Part shown: one piece after another, positions 2 through 10,078 of the stretch
How the letters are laid out: each line of letters opens with the position of its first letter
Position numbering within the stretch: position 1 is the stretch's first letter
Source: a bacterium
GTDB lineage: Bacteria > JAHJDO01
Direction: 5' to 3'
Assembly (NCBI GenBank): GCA_030611945.1
Contig: JAUWOV010000063.1
Span: forward strand, 1-10,078
Length of the DNA stretch: 10,078 nt
Notes under the pieces: model-generated
The model's database searches: none
Told to the model about the DNA's origin: nothing
Seen by the model: only the letters and a program-made list of their open reading frames with translations
Translations under genes and position numbers: made by a program

Positions 2-454
2 ATGATAGGTGCGATAATAGGCATTATTGTTGCTTTGGTCTCTGCGGGTTCTGCGATATATTCGGCTCAACAGCAAAAGAAAACAGCTGATTATAGAGCG
101 CAATTAGCAGAAGAAGCTGGCGAGGAAGTAAAGGCAGGGACTGAGGTTGAGAAGGCAAGAGCGGAAAGAGAAGGGAAAAGATTAAAAGCAAGGCAGAGAG
201 CGATGTATGCAAAGTCTGGCGTTAAAATGGAAGGTTCTCCTCTTGAAGTGCTTGCTGACACACAAGCGGAATTAGACTTAGATCAAATGATTATAGAGCA
301 TGGCGGGCTTTCAAGAGCTAGTGCATATGAGCGAAAAGGCATGTTTTTAAGGCAAGCAGGTCGCAGTGCCCAGCAGGCAAGTTATATAAGAGCAGGAGCG
401 AGCCTACTTGAATCAGGAGGAAAAATCTATAGTGGATATCAAGGGAGACAATAA
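2..454 (+). CDS. Small internal virion (ejection) protein, T7 gp14-like in character
   Basis: This 150-aa protein has a hydrophobic N-terminal segment (about residues 2-20, rich in Ile, Gly, Ala and Val). An Ala/Gln/Glu/Lys-rich helical body follows, with a G-S-P-L-E-V motif around residue 78 and a Q-A-E-L-D motif soon after. This architecture is typical of phage internal core proteins of the T7 gp14 type, which leave the capsid with the DNA and insert into the host outer membrane to start the ejection channel. The assignment rests on motif style, size and the two larger helical genes downstream, not on an alignment. The ATG is the second base of the window, so a start further upstream cannot be excluded, although the hydrophobic N-terminus right after this ATG looks natural. 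It contains no cysteine. The next gene follows after two bases, so the genes are very likely co-transcribed. Confidence 0.75.
   Translation: MIGAIIGIIVALVSAGSAIYSAQQQKKTADYRAQLAEEAGEEVKAGTEVEKARAEREGKRLKARQRAMYAKSGVKMEGSPLEVLADTQAELDLDQMIIEHGGLSRASAYERKGMFLRQAGRSAQQASYIRAGASLLESGGKIYSGYQGRQ
442..447 (+). promoter_or_regulatory. Shine-Dalgarno site that fixes a TTG start
   Basis: AGGGAG lies inside the last codons of the upstream gene, nine bases before TTG at 457. No ATG or GTG in frame is equally well placed, so this site supports TTG as the start of the 502-aa gene. Confidence 0.6.
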
Positions 455-456
455 CT

Positions 457-1965
457 TTGGCTAGAATTCCTATCTATACTTCTAAAGCCCCTATGCAGGG
501 ACCAATTGTAGTTGAACCTCATCCTATGGCGGGCACGCAAGTTGCAGAGGCAATAGGCGGACTTGCCCGGACTGTTGGCAAGGGTGTTGAGGATTGGGCT
601 AATGCTAAGGCACAGGATACAGCACAGAGAGAACTTGCAAGTAGTGCAATAAATTATAAGAGCAAGATGTCCAATTATGTTATTGGCGTAAGAGACAATC
701 CCGATTATAACAAAGATTGGGAAACTGATTTTAATAAATTCGAAAAGGAAACAAGAGGTGGAATAGAATTTACAAGTCAAAAAGCAAAGCAAGTTGCTGA
801 ACGAAATTTTGACAATTATCGCATAGCATATAAAACCGAATTAGCTGGTATTGATAGGCAAAAATACCAAAAAGCAGGAAGAATACAATTAGATATTGAC
901 TTAGATTTAGCAGAAAAGATGAGAGATAAAAAACAAGTAGATTTGCTTCTTAATTCAGCTAATTTACTACTTAGTAAACCGGCAATAGAAGCAAAAAGAA
1001 TTGAGAGATATCATGATATAGAAATATTGCAGATTAGAGATGCTTTAACTTTAGATCCAAAAGCGGATTTGAGTGGATTTAAGAATGTATCTAATAAAGA
1101 AAAATCGGAGTTAGTCAGTGTCTTTAGACGTAATGCTATAGCAGAGGCGAATAGATTAAAAGCTGAACGGGCAGATAAATTAAAAAAACAGCAAGCCGAG
1201 TTAGATAAAAACAATGTTGACGAATTAAGAGAACATACTTTTACTTATGATAAATTACTTGCTCAGAAACCTATACTTAGTAAAGAGCAATATAGGTATT
1301 TTGACAAAGCATTGGCAACAGTGCCACCAGAAAAAAGCGATCCAAAAGTAAGGGCGGAATTGTGGAAACGACTTGGATTGGGACTTTTAACACGAACCGA
1401 TATTATGGATGCTTATGGGAAATTGAATCAACCAGATAAAGAAAAGCTTGAAAGGAGTTATACTAATCGTGAAAAAAATGAGTGGGGGCAAATCATAGAA
1501 CCAAATAAATATCAACAGGCTACAAAAGAAGTAGATAAAACTTTAAATGAATTGGTTGAAGATAAATTAATGAGCAAGCAAGATATGGAAGAAGCTAGAA
1601 CAAATGTAATTTATAAACTTTTTGATGTATCTAGGGAAAAGAATCTGGCAGATGATGAGATAATAGAACAAAAAGAAAAATTAATGCTTCCTTATTATAA
1701 AATGCAATCTCAATTATTAAATGATAACAGATCGTGGAATGATTTTATAACTGGTAGAAAAACAGAGCGTGAAAAAGCAGAGAAAAAAGTTGAGAAACTT
1801 GAGATTTTAATAGAAAAAGAACCCGTTAAAGAAAAGCCTAAAGAAATTCTAAAAATAGAGGGTATTCCACCAGAGCGGGTTACGGAATTATCTGATTGGT
1901 TAAGGGAAAGCGGAAAAGTTGTTGATGAGGAAAACATAAGACTATCCTATGAAAAATTTAAATAA
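457..1965 (+). CDS. Coiled-coil-rich internal virion protein, probable T7 gp15 analogue
   Basis: This 502-aa protein starts with TTG. The N-terminus (residues 1-50) is Pro/Gly/Ala-rich with an A-I-G-G-L-A-R-T-V-G segment, a common opening of phage structural proteins that continue into long helices. From about residue 60 to the end it is highly charged (Lys, Glu, Asp, Gln) and predicted by eye to be almost entirely helical, with heptad-like stretches around 225-255 and 430-460. It has no cysteine, no signal peptide and no membrane segment. It sits between a gp14-like and a very large gp16-like protein, so the likely role is a virion core or ejection protein forming part of the DNA-delivery tube. 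It is shorter than T7 gp15 (747 aa), and the family link is inferred from order and composition. Its 3' end overlaps the next gene by 17 bases, which suggests translational coupling. A generic phage structural protein is the main alternative. Confidence 0.65.
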   Translation: MARIPIYTSKAPMQGPIVVEPHPMAGTQVAEAIGGLARTVGKGVEDWANAKAQDTAQRELASSAINYKSKMSNYVIGVRDNPDYNKDWETDFNKFEKETRGGIEFTSQKAKQVAERNFDNYRIAYKTELAGIDRQKYQKAGRIQLDIDLDLAEKMRDKKQVDLLLNSANLLLSKPAIEAKRIERYHDIEILQIRDALTLDPKADLSGFKNVSNKEKSELVSVFRRNAIAEANRLKAERADKLKKQQAELDKNNVDELREHTFTYDKLLAQKPILSKEQYRYFDKALATVPPEKSDPKVRAELWKRLGLGLLTRTDIMDAYGKLNQPDKEKLERSYTNREKNEWGQIIEPNKYQQATKEVDKTLNELVEDKLMSKQDMEEARTNVIYKLFDVSREKNLADDEIIEQKEKLMLPYYKMQSQLLNDNRSWNDFITGRKTEREKAEKKVEKLEILIEKEPVKEKPKEILKIEGIPPERVTELSDWLRESGKVVDEENIRLSYEKFK

Positions 1966-4900
1966 ATTAGATTTTACCAAAGCAAATGAATCATTTTTAA
2001 CAACTCTTAAAGATGAACCTAAAAAGATGAGTTCATCTGAATTTGCTACATTCTTCGCAACTCTTAAAGATGAACCTATCAAATTTGGCGGAGGCATATC
2101 ACGAGGAAAAGGTGCAGTTGGAACATTTGAAGACGACCTACCTAAAATTGAACCTATGACTTCTTACGTCAGGGGGCAAGTTGCCATACAAAAATTATTA
2201 CCAGCATTTTTCAGAAGACAACAAAGACGAGAACAAGTAATAGAGAAGGGATTAACAAATTATATGAAATATGCGCAGCCAGCTTTTAAATGGGCTATCT
2301 CTGGTATGCCAGAAGAAGACCCTGAGCGATTTATGAAAATGAGTTGGGCAGACGTAATAAGGGAATCATATCCAGTGCTTAGCGACCCTGAAAGTCCACT
2401 AGCCAGATCAGTAGCAGTTCAATTCGGAGTTGAAACAGCAGGCGAATTATTAGATATTGGCACAAGACCATCTACATATCTTATATGGGGAGTCGCTGAA
2501 AGATTAATCCCCCCGGCATTAGGTGCAGTTTTTAGAAAATTGCCAAAGGGAGTTCAGCAATCTCTTATCAAAGAAAGATTTATTTGGGGCAGAAAACCAC
2601 TTGACTTAGCATATAAGGAATTAGGATTAAAAAGAGGAGCTTCATTAAAGGAAGTTCATAAAGCATATCGTGGCATGGTTAGTGAATGGCATCCAGATAA
2701 AGCGCCTGCTGGGCAATCAATGAAATATCTTCGTAAATTTTTAAGAAAGCAAGGAGCATATGACAAAATAAAAGCGTCAACGGAAATAATAAGACAAGGA
2801 GAAATACTTAATAAAGATTTAGGATTGCCAATACCTAGAGAAGAAATGGCAAAAGTAAAACCCATTATAAGACGAACGGATATAGGGCGAGTCATGCCTA
2901 CAAAACCAACTATGCCCATAAAATTTGTTAAGCCGATAGATATAGGAACAGCCATTGAAAAAGGCGATTATAGATCTATTCTTAAAATGTCTAATATAAA
3001 ATATGATGAGTATGTTACAAAGAATTTTGAACCAGAGGAATTAAAGAAAATACAATTTTTATTTACTAAAGGTGGAAAAAGTCCTGATATTGCTGCTGCT
3101 GATTTAATGATAGACCATCCCGAAGTTGGAGAGATAACAGGTGATGATATAATTAGAAACGCAATAGCTCAAACAGGGAAAAAACTTGACACAATAGGAG
3201 ACCAAGAGTTAAAATACGCAAAGGAGTTAGAAGATGGATACCTTGAAAATGAAAGTATCAAAGATGTCGCAAGAAGAAAAATTGAAGAAAATAAGAAAGC
3301 TGGCATACAGGAAGGCCATAAGAGAGCGCTTAATGAAAAAGTCACCGAAGAAAACCTAAAAGAACTTGAAGAATTTTTTGTAGAAAGAAAAGAACTTATC
3401 ACCAAACACCCACTCAAAATAACCGCAAAAGACCTAATCCAAGCAAAAGATAGAGAAGAAATTCAAAGTTTATTGCAACGCATATTTGGCACATACGAAG
3501 AATTAGATAAAATAGAAGCAGGAGAATTGCCATATACTAAACGAGCTGAATTAGCTGATGATTTTATGGCTGACTTAGAACACGCAGTCGTGGAAAAAGA
3601 CACCGATGAAGTAAAAAAGATATTATCTGTTATAAAAACAGAATTAACTAAAGCAGATTATCCTGAAATAATTATTCCAGAAGCGAAACCAAAGGTTGAA
3701 AAACTTGTTATACCAGAAGAAAGGGCAGAAAAGGCAATAGAAAAAATAACAGAATCAAAGACCATTGAAGAAGCCACAGCAAGCATAGCCAATGCAGAAC
3801 ACATACTTGCAGATGAAAAGGGAGCGTTAGCTATAGGCGACATAACAGAACCAGCTAATGTTATTATCAATACCGGCAGAAAAGTCCACGATTTTATATT
3901 TGCATTTGGGCAAGTTAAAAGAGAGGCTCCTGAACTATACAAAAAAGCTATGCAGACATTTCATAAACAATCTGCGGCATTTGAGCAATCTGTAACTGAT
4001 CTTAATAAATTAATGAAGGGGAAAACATTATCACAAAAAGAAGGCGTTCAACTTACATTTGCCTTTGAAGATAAAAGACTTTCGCCACCAGAAAATCTAA
4101 AAGCAGAATATAAGAAGTTTGCAGATTTGTTGGATAAGATAGAAAATGCCCACAAAGAGCGCGGTATATTCGCAGAAGGATTTCCACAGAGAGCAATAAA
4201 TGAAGCAAATGCAGAGATACTGGAAATAGATAACAAATTAACTTTATTTAATAAAGATATTACTGCTAAAGATATTCTGAGAAAAAAAGAACTTTTAAAT
4301 GAAATACAAAAATTACAGAACTTTAATTATTTGCCACATACCATTGTTGTTCGCAGAGTAATAGAAGCAAAACTGGAAGGATTAAGTGGTGAAAAAAGAC
4401 AAGCATTTTTGGATAAAGCAAGTAGGATATCTTATCAATACAAGCAACGAACGGGAAGATTATTTTTAAAAGATTATTTCGAAACTGAACTTGTAAAACC
4501 AGAAGATATAGATATAAGAAAATTAGCAATAGAGGCATTAGATTCATTTTATGTTAGGTCAGCGCTTAAAGATTTAGTTGATTATGCAAAAACTAAAGAA
4601 TGGGTAAAACTAAGTTCAAAAGCATTGGAAAATCAAGGATGGATTCCTATCCGTCAAATAGGAGTATATGCGCCAGAATATAAAAATATGGTAATGCACC
4701 CCCTATTAGCTTCTGTTTATAGCGATTTAAAACTTATGAAAACGCCAAAGGGAACTACTTTTACTAGAATGTTGGGAATTGTAAAGGTAGCGCAATTTTA
4801 CAATCCTATGATTCTGGTCAATTACGATTTATTGCAAATGATGTATGGTGGGGCATATGCTTTGAACCCAATAAGGGAAACGAAATATTGGGCAGAAGCT

Positions 4901-6133
4901 TTTAAGCAAGTATTAACAAAAGGGGATAAATATCACGACTTGCATAGAAGGGGGTTATATCAAGAAGCATATATGCCGGGAGCAAGACACAAAGAAGATT
5001 TGATCAAAATTGCAGTTAGAAGGACCATAACGGAATTGCCTAAATATGTTAAATGGCTTGAAAAGATAACGAAGGTTACGTGGACAAAAGAAAATGCTAA
5101 ACATTTATTAGGATCAATGTATAGAGCTATACATAACGGAACGTGGACAATGGATAGAATAATAAGAACAAAATCCGCATTGGCTTATGAAGCTATGGGG
5201 ATACCAGCAGATGAGGCGGTTATAAAGGCAGCTAACTGGCACGCCGCATATTCTGAATTAGCCCCCAAGTATAAAAAAGAAATGGGTAAAATAGTATTTG
5301 TTCAAAGTTTTAGAATATTAATGCCTAGACAAATGATAGAAGCAATTATTAGAGAACCAGTAGAGTTAATTCTTGGAAAACGAAAAGCTAAAAAAGGAAC
5401 TTTTGAAAGAGTAATCAAAGGACTTGTTGCGATATTCGCCATTCCCGTTATGGTGGATTTATATTTTAAAGCAAGGGGATTTGAAAGAGACAAACTCGGT
5501 TGGAAATGGAAGAAAGAAGTTATGGTGGGTGGTCAAAAACAAGAACTTATTGTTGGAGTAAATTATATTCTCAATATGCCTTTGAAATGGTGGCATAGAT
5601 TAAATACATATAATCCGATAAGTCCTGACATAAGACCAATCCAAGGCATTAAGAGCTTTGCAAAGTGGGAATTACATCCAATATATCGAATCCCTATGGA
5701 TATAAAAGATAATAAACGTTCTTTTGGAAGTGGAGAATATGTCTATGATCCCTCAGAAACTAATCCTATTAAAAAATATACAGAAATTGCAGTTTTTGTA
5801 TTTGGGCAAGTATTTAGATTATATGGCAAGTTAATGGAAGACTATGCAGATGCAAAATATACTACCAAAGAGAAAAAATTGCAGGAACAAGTTTATGAAG
5901 AAGCATTAACGAAAATTGATAGAATAATTATAAATACAGTTGGATATAAATATATTAGGGTGAACAAGCAAAGCAGACAAAGGATTATGCAAAAATCTTT
6001 GGAGAAGGAATATTGGAAAAGATTATACACAATTCAACGCAAGTATTCTGGCGCAAAACAAAAAGAAATGCTTAGTAATTTAAAAACATGGCATAGTAAA
6101 TGTAGTAAATGGATTAATGAGGGATTTAAATGA
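1949..6133 (+). CDS. Giant internal virion (ejection) protein with an N-terminal-region J-domain
   Basis: This 1394-aa, mainly helical protein has the size and position of a T7 gp16-type ejection protein. Residues 1-45 contain a short tandem repeat with T-L-K-D-E-P twice. Residues about 218-280 form a J-domain: a Y-K-E-L-G-L turn, a basic helix ending K-A-Y-R-G-M-V, then HPD at 248-250 followed by K, and a further basic helix. The J-domain family stimulates Hsp70 (DnaK) ATPase activity through HPD. Residues 280-800 are charged helices. Around 790-960 are Y-L-P-H and F-Y-N-P-M segments, and near 1154-1172 a hydrophobic stretch that could span a membrane, followed by a Trp/Pro-rich region. The overall style recalls the large polyvalent proteins of phages. 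No lytic transglycosylase motif is obvious, unlike T7 gp16. There is one cysteine, close to the C-terminus. The start ATG overlaps the upstream gene, and the nearest purine-rich site (GAGGA at 1927-1931) is rather far, so translation may depend on coupling. The J-domain is well supported; the ejection role is inferred. Confidence 0.75.
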   Translation: MKNLNKLDFTKANESFLTTLKDEPKKMSSSEFATFFATLKDEPIKFGGGISRGKGAVGTFEDDLPKIEPMTSYVRGQVAIQKLLPAFFRRQQRREQVIEKGLTNYMKYAQPAFKWAISGMPEEDPERFMKMSWADVIRESYPVLSDPESPLARSVAVQFGVETAGELLDIGTRPSTYLIWGVAERLIPPALGAVFRKLPKGVQQSLIKERFIWGRKPLDLAYKELGLKRGASLKEVHKAYRGMVSEWHPDKAPAGQSMKYLRKFLRKQGAYDKIKASTEIIRQGEILNKDLGLPIPREEMAKVKPIIRRTDIGRVMPTKPTMPIKFVKPIDIGTAIEKGDYRSILKMSNIKYDEYVTKNFEPEELKKIQFLFTKGGKSPDIAAADLMIDHPEVGEITGDDIIRNAIAQTGKKLDTIGDQELKYAKELEDGYLENESIKDVARRKIEENKKAGIQEGHKRALNEKVTEENLKELEEFFVERKELITKHPLKITAKDLIQAKDREEIQSLLQRIFGTYEELDKIEAGELPYTKRAELADDFMADLEHAVVEKDTDEVKKILSVIKTELTKADYPEIIIPEAKPKVEKLVIPEERAEKAIEKITESKTIEEATASIANAEHILADEKGALAIGDITEPANVIINTGRKVHDFIFAFGQVKREAPELYKKAMQTFHKQSAAFEQSVTDLNKLMKGKTLSQKEGVQLTFAFEDKRLSPPENLKAEYKKFADLLDKIENAHKERGIFAEGFPQRAINEANAEILEIDNKLTLFNKDITAKDILRKKELLNEIQKLQNFNYLPHTIVVRRVIEAKLEGLSGEKRQAFLDKASRISYQYKQRTGRLFLKDYFETELVKPEDIDIRKLAIEALDSFYVRSALKDLVDYAKTKEWVKLSSKALENQGWIPIRQIGVYAPEYKNMVMHPLLASVYSDLKLMKTPKGTTFTRMLGIVKVAQFYNPMILVNYDLLQMMYGGAYALNPIRETKYWAEAFKQVLTKGDKYHDLHRRGLYQEAYMPGARHKEDLIKIAVRRTITELPKYVKWLEKITKVTWTKENAKHLLGSMYRAIHNGTWTMDRIIRTKSALAYEAMGIPADEAVIKAANWHAAYSELAPKYKKEMGKIVFVQSFRILMPRQMIEAIIREPVELILGKRKAKKGTFERVIKGLVAIFAIPVMVDLYFKARGFERDKLGWKWKKEVMVGGQKQELIVGVNYILNMPLKWWHRLNTYNPISPDIRPIQGIKSFAKWELHPIYRIPMDIKDNKRSFGSGEYVYDPSETNPIKKYTEIAVFVFGQVFRLYGKLMEDYADAKYTTKEKKLQEQVYEEALTKIDRIIINTVGYKYIRVNKQSRQRIMQKSLEKEYWKRLYTIQRKYSGAKQKEMLSNLKTWHSKCSKWINEGFK
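2001..2077 (+). repeat. Short in-frame tandem duplication with two identical 20-base copies
   Basis: An identical 20-base sequence occurs at 2001-2020 and 2058-2077, 57 bases apart, exactly 19 codons. It encodes T-L-K-D-E-P twice near the N-terminus of the giant virion protein. The residues before each copy are also similar (E-S-F-L-T and A-T-F-F-A), so the whole 19-aa unit looks duplicated and partly diverged. Confidence 0.8.
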
Positions 6134-6376
6134 TTATTTTCCTTCGGCATGCATCCATAGACTCCCTGTGTTCCATTGTAATTTTTGAGGGAGATAATGC
6201 CAGAAGAATATTGCGAGAAAGAGAAAAGTAAAAATGAGAATAAAACCAAAAACAGTTTCACATTTAGTATTCTTACTATGCTTTTTGGCAAAAAGAAATG
6301 AACCTAATAATCCAGTTAAGCATAGTGGAGTTAATGTAGTAAGCCATTGCAATGGAATCTCTAATAATTCTCTCAT
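6134..6376 (-). CDS. Small two-helix membrane protein, antisense to the late genes
   Basis: The reading frame gives an 80-aa protein with two clear hydrophobic segments, about residues 9-28 and 41-60, joined by a short basic loop containing K-K-H-S-K. The C-terminus is polar. This looks like a small inner-membrane protein; small phage proteins of this form include holins, antiholins and superinfection-exclusion proteins, but I do not recognise a family. Its stop codon abuts the stop of the giant virion gene, so the two are convergent. No Shine-Dalgarno site precedes ATG at 6376. An in-frame TTG two codons upstream is possible. A promoter-like sequence just upstream would place the transcript start almost at the ATG, which fits a leaderless message. 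A 61-codon frame on the + strand (6234-6419) competes for the same DNA, but its product has no recognisable organisation. The gene could still be spurious. Confidence 0.45.
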   Translation of the reverse strand: MRELLEIPLQWLTTLTPLCLTGLLGSFLFAKKHSKNTKCETVFGFILIFTFLFLAIFFWHYLPQKLQWNTGSLWMHAEGK

Positions 6377-6382
6377 ACTCAA

Positions 6383-6470: not shown

Positions 6471-7277
6471 ATGAACAAAAGAAATTTACTCTTAAACGTG
6501 ATCTTAGTAATAATGCTTTTATCAGGACAGGCATTTGCTGGCAATAAGTCAGGCTATATGACGCCTGATCAGAAGGATGCGCTTGACGGAGCAAATGCGC
6601 CCTCTGCAACTAATGTGCTGGCTACTATGAATGATGTTGCTGCCATAGAGACGGGAGTGCAAACTATTACGCCCGGAGCGAACATGAGCAATTCTGGCAC
6701 AGAGGCTGATCCTGTTCTGAACGTTGATATGAATGATAGTTCAACCTCTGACACGGAGCCATGGTCAGCTGCAAAGATAATAGAAGAACTTGCCGACAAG
6801 CTAGATATAGCCGATTCTCCGGTTATTAGCGATGTGGCATATGACGCTGATACTTGGAACGCAAATACAGACGCAGCCTCTAAGAATGCTATCAGGGATA
6901 AGATTGAATCATTGGCGAGTGATTCTAGTACAGCTTCACTAACTCTCGATTATAAATTATACAGAGTATCTCTCGGAGAATCATATACGGGTTACATAGA
7001 TTGTCAATTAGTTATCAGTCAAAACTCTGATTTTTCTGCACCTGATGTAGATATCGATATGGCAACATCACAAACAGATTGGCTTGCTTATTGTGCTGCA
7101 AGCGATAGTTATGAGGCTTGGAGTGCAAGCGGTATGCCAGCAACAGATGTGAGGTCTATTATATATAAGGGGACGTCTTTAACGAGAGGAACAGTTTATT
7201 ATTATAGATGGCGGACTTATGCTCATGGTGATACTGAAATTGCAACAGATTATAAAGGAGGCATGCTATGTCTATAA
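6471..7277 (+). CDS. Secreted tail-fibre-like protein with signal peptide
   Basis: Residues 1-23 are a classical Sec signal peptide: K-R at the start, a Leu/Ile/Val core, and A-F-A before the predicted cleavage at 23/24. The mature part begins with Y-M-T-P-D-Q-K-D-A-L-D, a motif seen in phage tail fibres. It continues with G-T-E-A-D-P-V-L-N-V, P-W-S-A-A-K-I near 97-103, and S-D-V-A-Y-D followed by T-W-N-A-N-T-D-A-A-S-K-N-A-I-R-D-K-I (about 120-145). The last two are recurrent spacer modules of phage fibre and appendage proteins. Residues 155-268 look like a beta-sandwich, perhaps fibronectin type III-like, with W-S-A-S-G and Y-Y-Y-R-W-R-T-Y. A perfect AGGAGG precedes the ATG. The next gene overlaps the 3' end by 10 bases. 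The conflict between a fibre-type body and an export signal is real in the sequence. Its job, perhaps on the cell surface rather than in the virion, is inferred. Confidence 0.75.
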   Translation: MNKRNLLLNVILVIMLLSGQAFAGNKSGYMTPDQKDALDGANAPSATNVLATMNDVAAIETGVQTITPGANMSNSGTEADPVLNVDMNDSSTSDTEPWSAAKIIEELADKLDIADSPVISDVAYDADTWNANTDAASKNAIRDKIESLASDSSTASLTLDYKLYRVSLGESYTGYIDCQLVISQNSDFSAPDVDIDMATSQTDWLAYCAASDSYEAWSASGMPATDVRSIIYKGTSLTRGTVYYYRWRTYAHGDTEIATDYKGGMLCL

Positions 7278-7759
7278 AGAATCTACTTATTAGTTTTGGT
7301 CTTATTTTAGTTGTGAGCACAGCCTTAGCTTGGTTAGGTTCAAACCCCGCAATAAGAATAGTCTATCCTGATGCTACTGACGATGCTGATACATGTCTTG
7401 TGCCTGTAAATGTAAAGGTTAAACAGTTAAATACTTTGCAAGGCATTGACTATGGATTATATTGGTTAGTAGAGGAAATTGATGGTGATACAGTTATTAG
7501 CGATACAGAGTGGAATGCAAGAGTGCAAATTCCTGTTAGTAACATTGAGGATATCAATAGAGAAGCTCCTCTTGTAATAGCAGAATTGGGAACAAACTTC
7601 TTGATTCAATCAACATATTACTATATTATTGGAATAGGAAAGGATTTGAATGGGGATTATTCTGCTGATAGCAGTTTAATTCCGGGTGTTAGTCAAGACG
7701 GAGATGCAAATATAGCAGACAGTGCAATAGCACGATTTTATGTAAATGGTTATAGATAA
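7268..7759 (+). CDS. Small secreted beta-rich protein
   Basis: This 163-aa protein has a signal peptide (residues 1-21, ending A-L-A before W22). The mature part is Asp-rich and predicted to be mostly beta strand. A Y-Y-Y-I-I-G-I-G-K-D segment around 117-126 resembles the Y-Y-Y-R-W-R-T segment of the preceding gene product, so both may carry a related fibronectin-like fold. D126, N128, D130 and D134 are spaced like a calcium-binding loop, but the last ligand expected of an EF-hand is absent. I do not recognise a family. The ATG overlaps the end of the previous gene by 10 bases, and its ribosome site (AAAGGAGG) is built into the last codons of that gene, so the two are translationally coupled and probably work together. 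Confidence 0.65.
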   Translation: MSIKNLLISFGLILVVSTALAWLGSNPAIRIVYPDATDDADTCLVPVNVKVKQLNTLQGIDYGLYWLVEEIDGDTVISDTEWNARVQIPVSNIEDINREAPLVIAELGTNFLIQSTYYYIIGIGKDLNGDYSADSSLIPGVSQDGDANIADSAIARFYVNGYR

Positions 7760-7774
7760 TAAGGAGGAAGTAAC

Positions 7775-8635
7775 ATGAAACGTCTTATATTAGCAGTTGG
7801 CTTGGTTTTAATGCTGGCAAGTCTATGCTTTGCGGAAGAACCTAGCAGTGAAAGATTTATGTTGGGCTGGAAGATAACAGGAATTTGGGGTGACAAAGTT
7901 AAGGAAAAACCAATCTTAGAGGCTGCTGGGTTCTCAGACGAGCAAGTAGTTTCTGTAATTGAAAGAAAAAGTCAACACGTTAGCTTTGATTTTTATACTT
8001 CTTGCTATCCTGTTGCTGGCACAGAGCAGCGAGTCATAAACGAAGCAGGCTGGACATTGAAGGGGCTTATGGTGAAAGACATAAAGAATGCCTATCTTGA
8101 TTATGAGTATTGGATACGTTTCTTAGATGATGTTGAACTCATTTCAGATATTGCACCAGGACAGATATTTCTCTTAGTTGATTTCATAAAAAAGCACCGT
8201 AAACAAATAAAAATTATGCGTTTGACACATGCAGGGTGGTTTGGAACCTATGGTAATAACTTGGATATGAAGAATTTTGAGTTTGTAAAGAAGAAAACTG
8301 AGATGCAATTCTACATACTGAAAGCTGTTTTCCCTGATTTACCTATTCTGGGAACGGTTTGTGTAAGTAGTGCAGATTTTGAATGGATAAAGATGAGCCC
8401 TCCTGTTGATGGTTGGGCAGTTTGGAATATATATAAACGAGGAGCAAATTTCGAGAAGATTTACAATAGATATAAAAACTATTCTCCGAATATAGTTCTT
8501 GGTGGTTTTTATGGATTTAACCCTGATAATAAAATAGTTACTTGGAATGATGTTAAAAAATATAAATGGGAAACAATTACCCGTTGTAAAGAAATTGGTT
8601 ACAAGGGAGTTAGTTTTCCTATTTGGCGTTATTAA
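7775..8635 (+). CDS. Secreted beta/alpha-barrel-like protein, possible glycoside hydrolase
   Basis: This 286-aa protein has a signal peptide (residues 1-20, ending C-F-A before E21). A cysteine lies in the c-region at 18, but the -1 residue is Leu, so this is not a lipobox. The mature chain alternates hydrophobic strands and helices. Examples are H-V-S-F-D-F-Y near 68-74, I-F-L-L-V-D-F near 131-137, I-K-I-M-R-L-T-H near 145-152, D-G-W-A-V-W-N near 212-218, I-V-L-G-G-F-Y near 240-246, and a terminal G-Y-K-G-V-S-F-P-I-W. Aromatic residues cluster at strand ends, as in TIM-barrel carbohydrate enzymes. I cannot assign catalytic residues or a family, so an enzyme activity is only a suggestion. A strong ribosome site (AAGGAGG, 7761-7767) lies between the genes. 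The location points to the periplasm or outside of the host cell. Confidence 0.6.
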   Translation: MKRLILAVGLVLMLASLCFAEEPSSERFMLGWKITGIWGDKVKEKPILEAAGFSDEQVVSVIERKSQHVSFDFYTSCYPVAGTEQRVINEAGWTLKGLMVKDIKNAYLDYEYWIRFLDDVELISDIAPGQIFLLVDFIKKHRKQIKIMRLTHAGWFGTYGNNLDMKNFEFVKKKTEMQFYILKAVFPDLPILGTVCVSSADFEWIKMSPPVDGWAVWNIYKRGANFEKIYNRYKNYSPNIVLGGFYGFNPDNKIVTWNDVKKYKWETITRCKEIGYKGVSFPIWRY

Positions 8636-8655
8636 AAATCTTAAATCTAAAAAAG

Positions 8656-8664
8656 AGGAGGTGA
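8656..8664 (+). promoter_or_regulatory. Extended Shine-Dalgarno site for the TPR gene
   Basis: AGGAGGTGA is a nine-base match to the 16S 3' end consensus and sits seven bases before ATG at 8672. It is the longest such match in the window and suggests high translation of the exported TPR protein. Confidence 0.75.
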
Positions 8665-8671
8665 GAAAAAT

Positions 8672-9340
8672 ATGAAGAAAATACTGATTGCTACACTGTT
8701 TTGTTTCTTTCTAGTTGGAACAGCTCTTGCTGGTCTAATTGAAGAAGCTGAAAAGAGCCAATTCTTACCGTTAGGAAAAGTTCAAATTCTTGAAATCATT
8801 TCTAACAACTATAAGAAGGTTGGCAATTTCTCAGAGGCTTCAAAAGCACTAGAGAACGCAATTCGGATAGCTAAGACAGAGGGTATTACTTCACAAATGG
8901 CAAGATTGCTTTATACAAAAGCAAGACTAACAGCAACGTTGGGAGATTACGCAAAGGCAGTGAGTGAGCTTGATGAAGCTATTGCATCAACAGGTATAAA
9001 AAACAGAAAGAGCTCATATCTGCAACTGAAGGCTCGTTACCTACGAAATCTAGGGAATGAGAAAGCATCTCAGGCTGCTTATTTGGAAAGCATTACATTG
9101 CTACCAAATAAATATATCTATGCAGAACGAGGACTAAATGCCATTTCTGTTGATGTGGTTGGTGAAGATGCTTATTACTCTACTTTTGAGAGCTTAGCTA
9201 GTTTCTACAACAGTCCGAAATTTGCTAAGCAAAGAAAGACTAACACTAAGATGTCTGATTTTGTAGACTTTCTTAACAGTGTTATTGCTGAGCGTAAAGC
9301 AAAATCTGTGACTCCTGTAATAGAGTCTGTGATAGAGTAA
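8672..9340 (+). CDS. Exported TPR-repeat protein
   Basis: This 222-aa protein has a signal peptide (residues 1-20, K-K start, Phe/Leu core, A-L-A before G21). About three tetratricopeptide repeats follow, near residues 35-71, 72-108 and 109-145. They are recognised by helix pairs with the turn residues G-N-F-S-E-A, G-D-Y-A-K-A and G-N-E-K-A-S, and by A-I or S-I hydrophobic second helices. TPRs are protein-binding scaffolds. The C-terminal 75 residues are helical without a clear repeat. It would act as an adaptor in the periplasm or at the cell surface, plausibly binding one of the other exported products encoded just upstream. Its only cysteine is in the signal peptide. The partner is unknown. 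Host-type lipoprotein assembly TPR proteins are an alternative ancestry. Confidence 0.75.
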   Translation: MKKILIATLFCFFLVGTALAGLIEEAEKSQFLPLGKVQILEIISNNYKKVGNFSEASKALENAIRIAKTEGITSQMARLLYTKARLTATLGDYAKAVSELDEAIASTGIKNRKSSYLQLKARYLRNLGNEKASQAAYLESITLLPNKYIYAERGLNAISVDVVGEDAYYSTFESLASFYNSPKFAKQRKTNTKMSDFVDFLNSVIAERKAKSVTPVIESVIE

Positions 9341-9361
9341 AAAATGTACGCAATTGCTATT

Positions 9362-9379
9362 GGGGAGTTGATTCTCCCC
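9362..9379 (+). promoter_or_regulatory. Stem-loop in the leader of the lipoprotein-like gene
   Basis: GGGGAG (9362-9367) and CTCCCC (9374-9379) form a six-base-pair stem with a six-base loop, followed by only three T residues, so it is a poor terminator. The right arm can also pair with GGGGA (9395-9399), which belongs to the ribosome site of the next gene. The two pairings exclude each other. A 19-codon frame (ATG 9344 to TGA 9401-9403) runs through the hairpin but has no good ribosome site. Confidence 0.4.
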
Positions 9380-9404
9380 TTTAGCTCTAATATGGGGGAA
9401 TGAT

Positions 9405-9716
9405 ATGAATAAGCTAGTAATAATTGCAGTAATAGGACTTATGCTTTCTGGTGGTGCGACCACAAGGATTTGTTATACAGAGAGACCAAAGGATACGGAT
9501 GTAAGCTCGTCTATGAAGCAGGGACGTATCTTTAATAAAAAGCCTATTGTAGGCAAAGGGTTTGATGTGATAACCAAAGGACAGGTAGAGGCAGAGGTAA
9601 CAACAAAAGACGGCAGTGTAGTTAAAATTAAAACCATGAAGCCTAGCTTGATGGAGAGAATAATGGGCTTCTGGAGCATAGCAAAACCGGACAACGTAGG
9701 AATAGGGGGGAAATAA
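9405..9716 (+). CDS. Small exported lipoprotein-like protein with a defective lipobox
   Basis: This 103-aa protein has a short positively charged start (N-K) and a hydrophobic core (residues 4-14). L-S-G-G-A-T-T (14-20) then matches the usual lipoprotein box L-S-G-C-A-T-T except that residue 17 is Gly (GGT) instead of Cys (TGT). Without the cysteine, signal peptidase II could not process it, so it would stay anchored by its N-terminus or be cut differently. The next cysteine, at 23, follows T-R-I and is not a lipobox. The rest is polar and basic with short beta-like segments and no recognised domain. Small lipoproteins next to lysis genes in phages are often outer-membrane spanins, but nothing specific supports that here. 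The ribosome site is a G-run (9394-9399), weaker than those upstream. The next gene follows after one base. Confidence 0.6.
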   Translation: MNKLVIIAVIGLMLSGGATTRICYTERPKDTDVSSSMKQGRIFNKKPIVGKGFDVITKGQVEAEVTTKDGSVVKIKTMKPSLMERIMGFWSIAKPDNVGIGGK

Positions 9717-9717
9717 T

Positions 9718-9897
9718 ATGGAAAAATCAACGCTTGGATTACCTTCGGGAAGCATAAGAGCTATTCTGGCTCTGGCAATATCAGGAGTAGCATTGGCAAC
9801 TATAATATTAAGGGGTGAGCTTCCTCAAGGATTATCTGCTATATGGGGCAGCGTGTTAGGTTTTTATTTTGCAGGTAAGAAAGGGGATAATGGCTGA
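9718..9897 (+). CDS. 59-aa membrane protein, possible holin-type protein
   Basis: The product opens with a L-P-S-G-S-I-R segment and continues into a hydrophobic helix (residues about 14-31). After a short polar turn (R-G-E-L-P) comes a second, weaker hydrophobic segment ending G-F-Y-F-A-G-K-K. The pattern P-x-G-x-x-R-A-I, hydrophobic helix, G-E-x-P, then F-Y-F recurs in short phage membrane proteins of unproven function that lie near lysis genes. Length and topology are compatible with a small holin. A G-run (9705-9710) seven bases upstream serves as ribosome site. The gene overlaps the next one by eight bases, which indicates coupled translation. Confidence 0.65.
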   Translation: MEKSTLGLPSGSIRAILALAISGVALATIILRGELPQGLSAIWGSVLGFYFAGKKGDNG

Positions 9898-10078
9898 AAA
9901 GATAACAATTGGAGTATTAGGCGAAAGACTTAATAATCTAAAGGATAGCCTTTTTAATTCAAAAACAGGCATGCTTCCTAGATTGGAATCGAAATTTGAT
10001 AATCATTTAAAACATCATGAGAAAAACGAATCTAAAAAAGGAGATAGAATTTTTAAGATTTTTACTGTAATTTTGCAA
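9890..10078 (+). CDS. Partial helical protein, XhlA-like organisation, cut by the window end
   Basis: Sixty-three codons are visible and the frame is still open at the last base. The N-terminal half contains E-R-L-N-N-L, then L-P-R-L-E-S-K-F-D-N-H-L and H-H-E-K-N. This is an amphipathic, possibly coiled-coil helix. A basic stretch (K-K-G-D-R) follows, and then the start of a hydrophobic segment (I-F-K-I-F-T-V-I-L). A coiled coil followed by a C-terminal membrane helix is the layout of XhlA-type holin-associated proteins. The homology is not proven and the C-terminus is missing. The ribosome site AAGGGGA lies inside the preceding membrane-protein gene. Confidence 0.6.
   Translation, partial: MAEKITIGVLGERLNNLKDSLFNSKTGMLPRLESKFDNHLKHHEKNESKKGDRIFKIFTVILQ

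Follow-up and report, generated by a model that had tools for sequence, protein, structure and literature searches.

Tailed phages are, in the textbook view, assembled in the cytoplasm up to lysis, and their fibers and spikes of the T7 gp17 type are encoded late, behind the internal virion proteins, with shaft-like and tip domains and a variable C-terminus. Filamentous phages have a virion adsorption protein with a signal peptide (SP), pIII, which is matured in the periplasm, and phage T5 makes a small exported lipoprotein, Llp, for superinfection exclusion. Phage fOg44 encodes a secreted endolysin, Lys44, a late product that is exported by the host Sec system with cleavage of its SP (PMC6116005), and in a survey of variable proteins encoded by phages, their lack of SPs was read as support for phage origin (PMC6199706). 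The locus described here lies at positions 6471-9716 of a 10,078-bp stretch of bacterial DNA (the window) and is a cassette of five consecutive genes with Sec SPs, headed by a tail fiber and preceded by a T7-type internal-virion module. The preferred reading, with a probability of about 0.5, is that receptor-binding fibers of this kind would be exported by Sec, folded in the periplasm, and joined to the virion at lysis.

The cassette shares features with each of these systems and departs from all of them. The window fiber has the late position, the shaft-like and tip domains, and the variable C-terminus of gp17-type fibers, but it carries a Sec SP, and relatives encode the anchor end in a gene of its own, without an SP. 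It resembles pIII as an SP-bearing adsorption protein, whereas filamentous virions are extruded at the membrane and tailed phages are assembled in the cytoplasm. Lys44 is likewise a phage late product with a Sec signal, but it is a lysis enzyme rather than an adhesin and is encoded by a single gene. Llp compares with the fifth protein of the cassette as a small exported phage protein, but the window copy has no lipobox Cys, which sets it apart from lipid-anchored exported proteins of the Llp/Cor type, and it belongs to a fiber cassette. Cultured Tunturi phages 1, 2, and 4 have consecutive SP-bearing fiber, spike, and structural genes in the late region, as the window does, although no sequence relation to the window proteins was found. 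No earlier report of Sec SPs on tailed-phage fibers was found in the literature covered, which fell short of most subscription journals. Their presence on podovirus and siphovirus fiber genes, cultured ones included, would mean that virions mature partly in a second compartment or that exported fiber decoys exist as a class, and either would change the metagenomic search for host-range genes; an SP-bearing protein on a contig can pass as a host gene.

The window comprises all of contig C13 of G000, a metagenome-assembled genome (MAG) of 1.66 Mb from a sparsely represented lineage, in which, beyond four congeners, the relatives sampled share the domain only. The host is a diderm that encodes BamA, the lipopolysaccharide transporter LptD, and the lipoprotein signal peptidase LspA, so a protein with a Sec signal would be delivered to the periplasm, and one with a lipobox would be anchored in a membrane. 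Host contamination of the contig was ruled out: the gp14-like virion gene runs into the cassette, and the same order is found in a 37-kb phage contig of a congener (G001:C114).

The five open reading frames (ORFs) are all on the forward strand. The tail fiber (6471-7277, 268 aa) begins with the signal peptidase I-type Sec SP MNKRNLLLNVILVIMLLSGQAFA/GN, with the site QAFA/G, and is followed by a 163-aa companion of the fiber tip (7268-7759; MSIKNLLISFGLILVVSTALA/WL, site TALA/W), a 286-aa protein (7775-8635; MKRLILAVGLVLMLASLCFA/EE, site LCFA/E), a 222-aa protein with tetratricopeptide (TPR) repeats (8672-9340; MKKILIATLFCFFLVGTALA/GL, site TALA/G), and a 103-aa protein of lipoprotein descent (9405-9716; MNKLVIIAVIGLMLSGGA/TTR, site SGGA/T). 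The consecutive Sec SPs proposed for 6471-9716 in a sequence-only reading of this DNA are borne out, as all five ORFs lie at these places and are called by a rule-based caller, with the n-, h-, and c-regions and A-x-A site of Sec/signal peptidase I substrates; the three upstream genes are not called. A second, stricter caller recovered seven of eight known exported enterobacterial proteins and fired on 10 of 970 shuffled N-termini (1%) and on 39 of 875 non-fiber phage genes (4.5%), an approximate calibration that used exported enterobacterial N-termini and the start of one coliphage fiber. Given this background, the run of five is real and far above what the caller yields by chance. Gene junctions overlap or are narrow (7277/7268, 7759/7775, 8635/8672, 9340/9405, and 9716/9718), each of the five starts has a purine-rich Shine-Dalgarno-like stretch, and no strong promoter specific to the cassette genes is evident. 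The overlaps and short gaps suggest a single transcription unit, and the coupling of these genes within a phage late region, also part of the sequence-only reading, is supported.

The fiber-like character ascribed to the first gene is confirmed by homology. Its C-terminal 117 aa share 81% identity with the end of a 572-aa fiber that has no SP, from L007, a myovirus-like contig with baseplate-type genes; relatives match PHROG tail-fiber families; and the gene sits in the late tail region behind the gp14-like, 502-aa, and gp16-like genes, as in G001. The mature N-domain recurs on C119, another contig of the same MAG (88% DNA identity over 253 bp, starting just behind the SP), and in G001:C114 (63% amino acid identity). 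A tail fiber assembled in the cytoplasm would be expected to lack an export signal, but the window fiber has one, and it is retained in relatives. Between the window and C119 fibers, 9 of 21 SP residues are shared and 74 of 92 in the mature N-domain; the fiber SP remains an SP while its sequence drifts.

The accessory proteins are less familiar. The 163-aa protein has an SP-bearing homolog in L007, 63% identical and directly behind the same fiber tip, and one 831-bp block of 74% DNA identity between the window and L007 spans both, so that two different types of phage carry the tip with its companion. The idea that the cassette moves as a unit holds in part, for this block. A pattern scan found no relatives of the 163-aa protein, though L007 holds one, and there is a remote match (E 3e-4) to a 459-aa SP protein with a C-terminal DUF2793 tail-fiber domain, encoded on contig C8 of the same MAG. 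The 286-aa protein has no relatives in the viral contigs, genomes, phages, and 96 other genomes searched and no match in the PDB. Neither protein belongs to a known family, and the structure models are too poor to use (predicted local distance difference test, pLDDT, 38.7 for the 286-aa and 32.5 for the 163-aa protein), so the labels "barrel-like" and "beta-rich" that they had been given are not confirmed. The TPR repeats of the 222-aa protein were correctly recognized from the letters and match Pfam TPR_8 (1.1e-8); against the PADLOC models of anti-phage defense, this TPR-type match (E 6.6e-5) is the only one and does not place the cassette in a defense system.

The near-lipobox noticed on the fifth protein has a counterpart in its homologs. 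Identity is 77% with an SGC-lipobox protein on C8 and 53% with a TSC one in G001, and in the window Gly replaces the lipobox Cys (SGG). The protein thus comes from a lipoprotein lineage and has lost the lipobox Cys, and the ancestral lipoprotein could have been an outer-membrane spanin. With Cys changed to Gly, the protein would be released rather than lipid-anchored.

Two proposals of the sequence-only reading fared less well. A separate envelope-acting system is hard to reconcile with a first gene that is a tail fiber in tail-fiber position, with the fiber, lectin, discoidin, and DUF2793 domains of relatives, and with the recurrence of SP-fibers in many phages. The five SP genes are unlikely to be a lysis assembly, and an endolysin reading, secreted or of the signal-arrest-release type, was rejected, as no peptidoglycan-hydrolase or other lytic domain was found in their products. 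The cassette does border small membrane proteins that may be lysis genes.

SP-fibers occupy the tail-fiber position behind a giant late protein in the window, on C119 and C8, and in G001:C114. The last of these runs from terminase through a portal-type connector, tail proteins, a gp14-like protein, a 509-aa protein, and the giant protein to a 101-aa SP-less stub, an SP-fiber with a LamG lectin domain, a lipoprotein, and an XhlA-like gene; the window has this order plus three extra SP genes between fiber and lipoprotein. On C8, a gp16-like gene is followed by an SP protein, an SP-fiber, an SP protein ending in DUF2793 (8e-15), a true lipoprotein, a small membrane protein, and a papain-like peptidase, and this region, next to the host genes queA and nnrD, looks like the end of a prophage. 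SP-fibers with exchangeable downstream SP genes (lectin, discoidin, phosphoesterase, beta-helix) are found in the same MAG, in the congener, and in IMG/VR. Two loci, L008 and L068, belong to the same siphophage and share an SP-fiber N-terminus that is itself homologous to that of the G001 podovirus, but they differ in the fiber tip and the following SP genes, with LamG and a metallophosphoesterase in one and discoidin and a lipoprotein in the other. This pattern has the appearance of exchangeable receptor-binding cassettes, as receptor-binding genes evolve. HNH-endonuclease-like genes, recognized by eye, stand beside the fiber cassette in two phages of the genus (L064 3049-3600 and L107 11821-12516) and are a plausible agent of cassette exchange. 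Small SP proteins were also seen between the tail tubular A-like and B-like genes of G001:C114 (L111 3131-3478, 115 aa) and ahead of an SP-fiber (L021 9123-9509). Close behind another SP-fiber, a probable lysozyme-type endolysin, likewise recognized by eye, has an SP (L055 11983-12609), and fiber export and endolysin export may go together in some phages. Among 50,697 phage records, no isolated relatives were found of the window fiber, the giant late protein, or three SP- or near-SP fibers from IMG/VR.

Cultured phages with the same property are available for Tunturiibacter (Tunturi 1, 2, and 4; PP887698, PP885685, and PP885687), in a study whose main text does not mention signal peptides (PMC11924767). 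By the record annotations, the podoviruses Tunturi 1 and 2 have SPs on gp12, gp13 (tail fiber), gp14 (pectin lyase/tail spike), gp16, and gp17 (virion structural protein), so that all the large fiber and spike candidates identified (gp12, gp13, gp14, and gp17) bear them; their portal, capsid, tail, and endolysin genes have none. The first caller missed gp12 and gp13, which have Pro in the h-region and were judged by eye and by hydrophobicity. The predicted mature forms would begin at QTTGAP in gp13 and at QTCTQT in gp17. The siphovirus Tunturi 4 has SPs on gp113 and gp114, and Tunturi 2 gp17, from residue 486, is homologous to Tunturi 4 gp114 from residue 22, right behind the gp114 SP, so the SP sits ahead of different domains. 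As negative controls, the fibers of Tunturi 3 and the late genes of Flavobacterium phage lillamy9-7 and Maribacter phage Molly_5 showed no SP-fibers. No published virion proteomics for the Tunturi phages were found; together with their soil host, these phages make the question testable now.

A broader survey took in loci fetched by two fiber queries and de-duplicated to 66 viral loci. SPs were present on 12 of 35 fiber-motif genes, which is not a population rate, as the survey was seeded with the fiber motif and related loci may not be fully independent, versus 39 of 875 other genes (odds ratio 11, p 8e-8). Behind SP-positive fibers, the following two same-strand genes were SP-bearing in 11 of 23 cases, versus 2 of 37 behind SP-negative ones (p 2e-4), so the SP is a property of the module. 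Variable content of this kind, with lectin, discoidin, and phosphoesterase domains in relatives and one cassette (C8) in a chromosome, would also suit morons, that is, host or prophage fitness genes whose secreted adhesins or enzymes help a lysogen to stick or feed and have nothing to do with infection. Cassettes are also carried, however, by the plaque-forming Tunturi phages, and the fiber stands next to virion genes and is coupled to late genes, which makes this explanation, like the hydrophobic anchor considered next, a less likely one; it is judged rather improbable.

Cysteine content separates the same groups. Its median is 0.71% in SP-positive fibers versus 0.18% in SP-negative ones (p 0.007; 3e-5 when SP-positive neighbors are included). 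The SP proteins of the window have 8 Cys in 932 residues, versus 1 in 2,043 (p 6e-4), and those of Tunturi 2 have 84 in 4,102 residues (2.05%), versus 27 in 5,332 (0.51%) for other late proteins (p 6e-12). Such enrichment is as expected of oxidative folding, and Cys pairs would be sensible in an oxidizing compartment. It is also one of several features that sit poorly with a non-Sec explanation, in which the hydrophobic N-terminus is a plug that anchors the fiber in the particle. Some internal virion proteins do have hydrophobic N-termini, and cleavage here is a prediction, but the complete n-h-c architecture and A-x-A sites on unrelated proteins, the real lipobox in homologs, and homology that begins right behind the SP in Tunturi 4 gp114 make a plug very improbable.

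Gene pairs in relatives give the exported fiber a possible place in the virion. In L095, a locus labeled as a Pseudomonadota MAG, a 267-aa protein with no SP matches several tail proteins and fibers over their first ∼120 residues (PHROG 1640, 1.3e-9, and others), and directly after it comes an overlapping ORF in which the internal start MNFRGLLTHSIVLFLFFSGVAFG begins an SP-fiber. In L107 and in L008/L068, the gene for a short protein that has no SP and shares a C-terminal domain overlaps the start of the SP-fiber. Because of these pairs, the gene arrangement suggests that the anchor is made with the virion and the distal fiber part is made for export. The virion would then be split, with head, tail, and a short fiber anchor made in the cytoplasm and a receptor-binding part that passes through Sec, is disulfide-folded in the periplasm, and is attached only at lysis, a version that is put forward tentatively, at a little short of even odds.

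On the docking-at-lysis reading, the cassette would be a phage adhesion module made for export. The fiber (6471-7277) and its accessory proteins would be translated late, alongside the virion genes, and carried out by the host Sec system, with cleavage by signal peptidase, or by LspA for the lipoprotein form. In the periplasm of the diderm host, the exported fiber proteins would fold and form disulfides while the cytoplasm is the site of assembly for the capsid, the tail, and any SP-less fiber stub. Once lysis opens the membrane, particles would meet the exported fibers and the distal receptor-binding part would dock. We infer export, cleavage, disulfides, and docking at lysis from what is seen in these loci: the SPs, their recurrence on fiber genes, the clustering of SP-bearing neighbors, the Cys enrichment, the diderm host, and the stub/SP-fiber pairs of relatives.

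The main rival of docking at lysis is an exported decoy or receptor shield, in which fiber and companions are not virion parts and instead coat or process the surface of the infected cell, for receptor masking, superinfection exclusion, or release of progeny from debris. A tip shared with the SP-less virion fiber of L007 but placed on an exported protein has the look of a decoy, and the lipoprotein in the cassette, whose lipobox is intact on C8 and in G001, the pectate-lyase-like, polysaccharide-acting partner in Tunturi, and the position of C8 beside host queA and nnrD, from which a prophage could express the cassette, all suit such a role. The stub/SP-fiber pairs favor a virion role, however; no other full-length fiber was found in Tunturi 1 and 2 or in G001:C114, so that their virions would lack a receptor binder; and the genes lie in the late tail region with no strong promoter of their own standing out. 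A decoy or shield is regarded as the less likely of the two, though still a live alternative.

Several points nevertheless weigh against export followed by docking. To our knowledge, fiber maturation outside the cytoplasm has no precedent in tailed phages, and for every one of these phages the place of the fiber in the particle is a prediction. The SPs were called by rule, the survey was seeded as described above, and, taken one at a time, C8, C119, and G001 show no significant Cys enrichment. The window itself shows no visible stub, L007 bears the same fiber tip without any SP, and the TPR, phosphoesterase, and lipoprotein partners have no obvious place in a virion.

Upstream of the cassette, the window shows a gp14/gp15/gp16-type order in which gp14 is identified by family and gp15 and gp16 by position and the order in G001. 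The T7 gp14-like internal virion protein (2-454, forward strand) matches PHROG 418 (E 4.9e-23) and has a 66% identical homolog in G001:C114. Between it and the giant gene lies a 502-aa probable internal virion protein in the gp15 position (457-1965, forward, no SP), with a homolog of 31% identity in the same gene order in the congener phage. The gp16-like giant late protein (1949-6133, forward, 1394 aa, no SP), so named from its position, has a DnaJ J-domain at aa 222-271 (Pfam DnaJ, 2.8e-8), a chaperone-recruiting domain that here lies inside a probably ejected virion protein. Its counterpart at the same place in G001 has no Pfam match, and the counterparts in G001 and C8 match PHROG 9880.

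Downstream, a small holin-like membrane protein of 59 aa (9718-9897, forward) has a weak GTA_holin_3TM match (E 0.025) and a 74% identical ORF at the same place on C8; the first, looser rule called this ORF as an SP too, yet it resembles a small membrane protein. It is followed by the start of a 77-aa XhlA-like membrane protein (9890-10078, forward), a gene cut by the contig end and 73% identical to L107 12519-12752 of G001, which has one C-terminal transmembrane segment.

Between the giant gene and the fiber, and not part of the cassette, the reverse strand carries a small antisense membrane ORF of 82 aa (6134-6382), with a TTGACA-N17-TATCGT match just upstream of it at 6411-6383. Small antisense membrane ORFs are found at the corresponding place in C119 and G001, and those between the giant late gene and the SP-fiber include ones in L064 (2787-3035, reverse, 82 aa) and in L107 of G001 (8678-8857, reverse, 59 aa). 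Those of the window, L064, and L107, from three phages of one host genus, have no evident sequence homology, and one guess is that the antisense ORF encodes an exclusion protein expressed in lysogeny.

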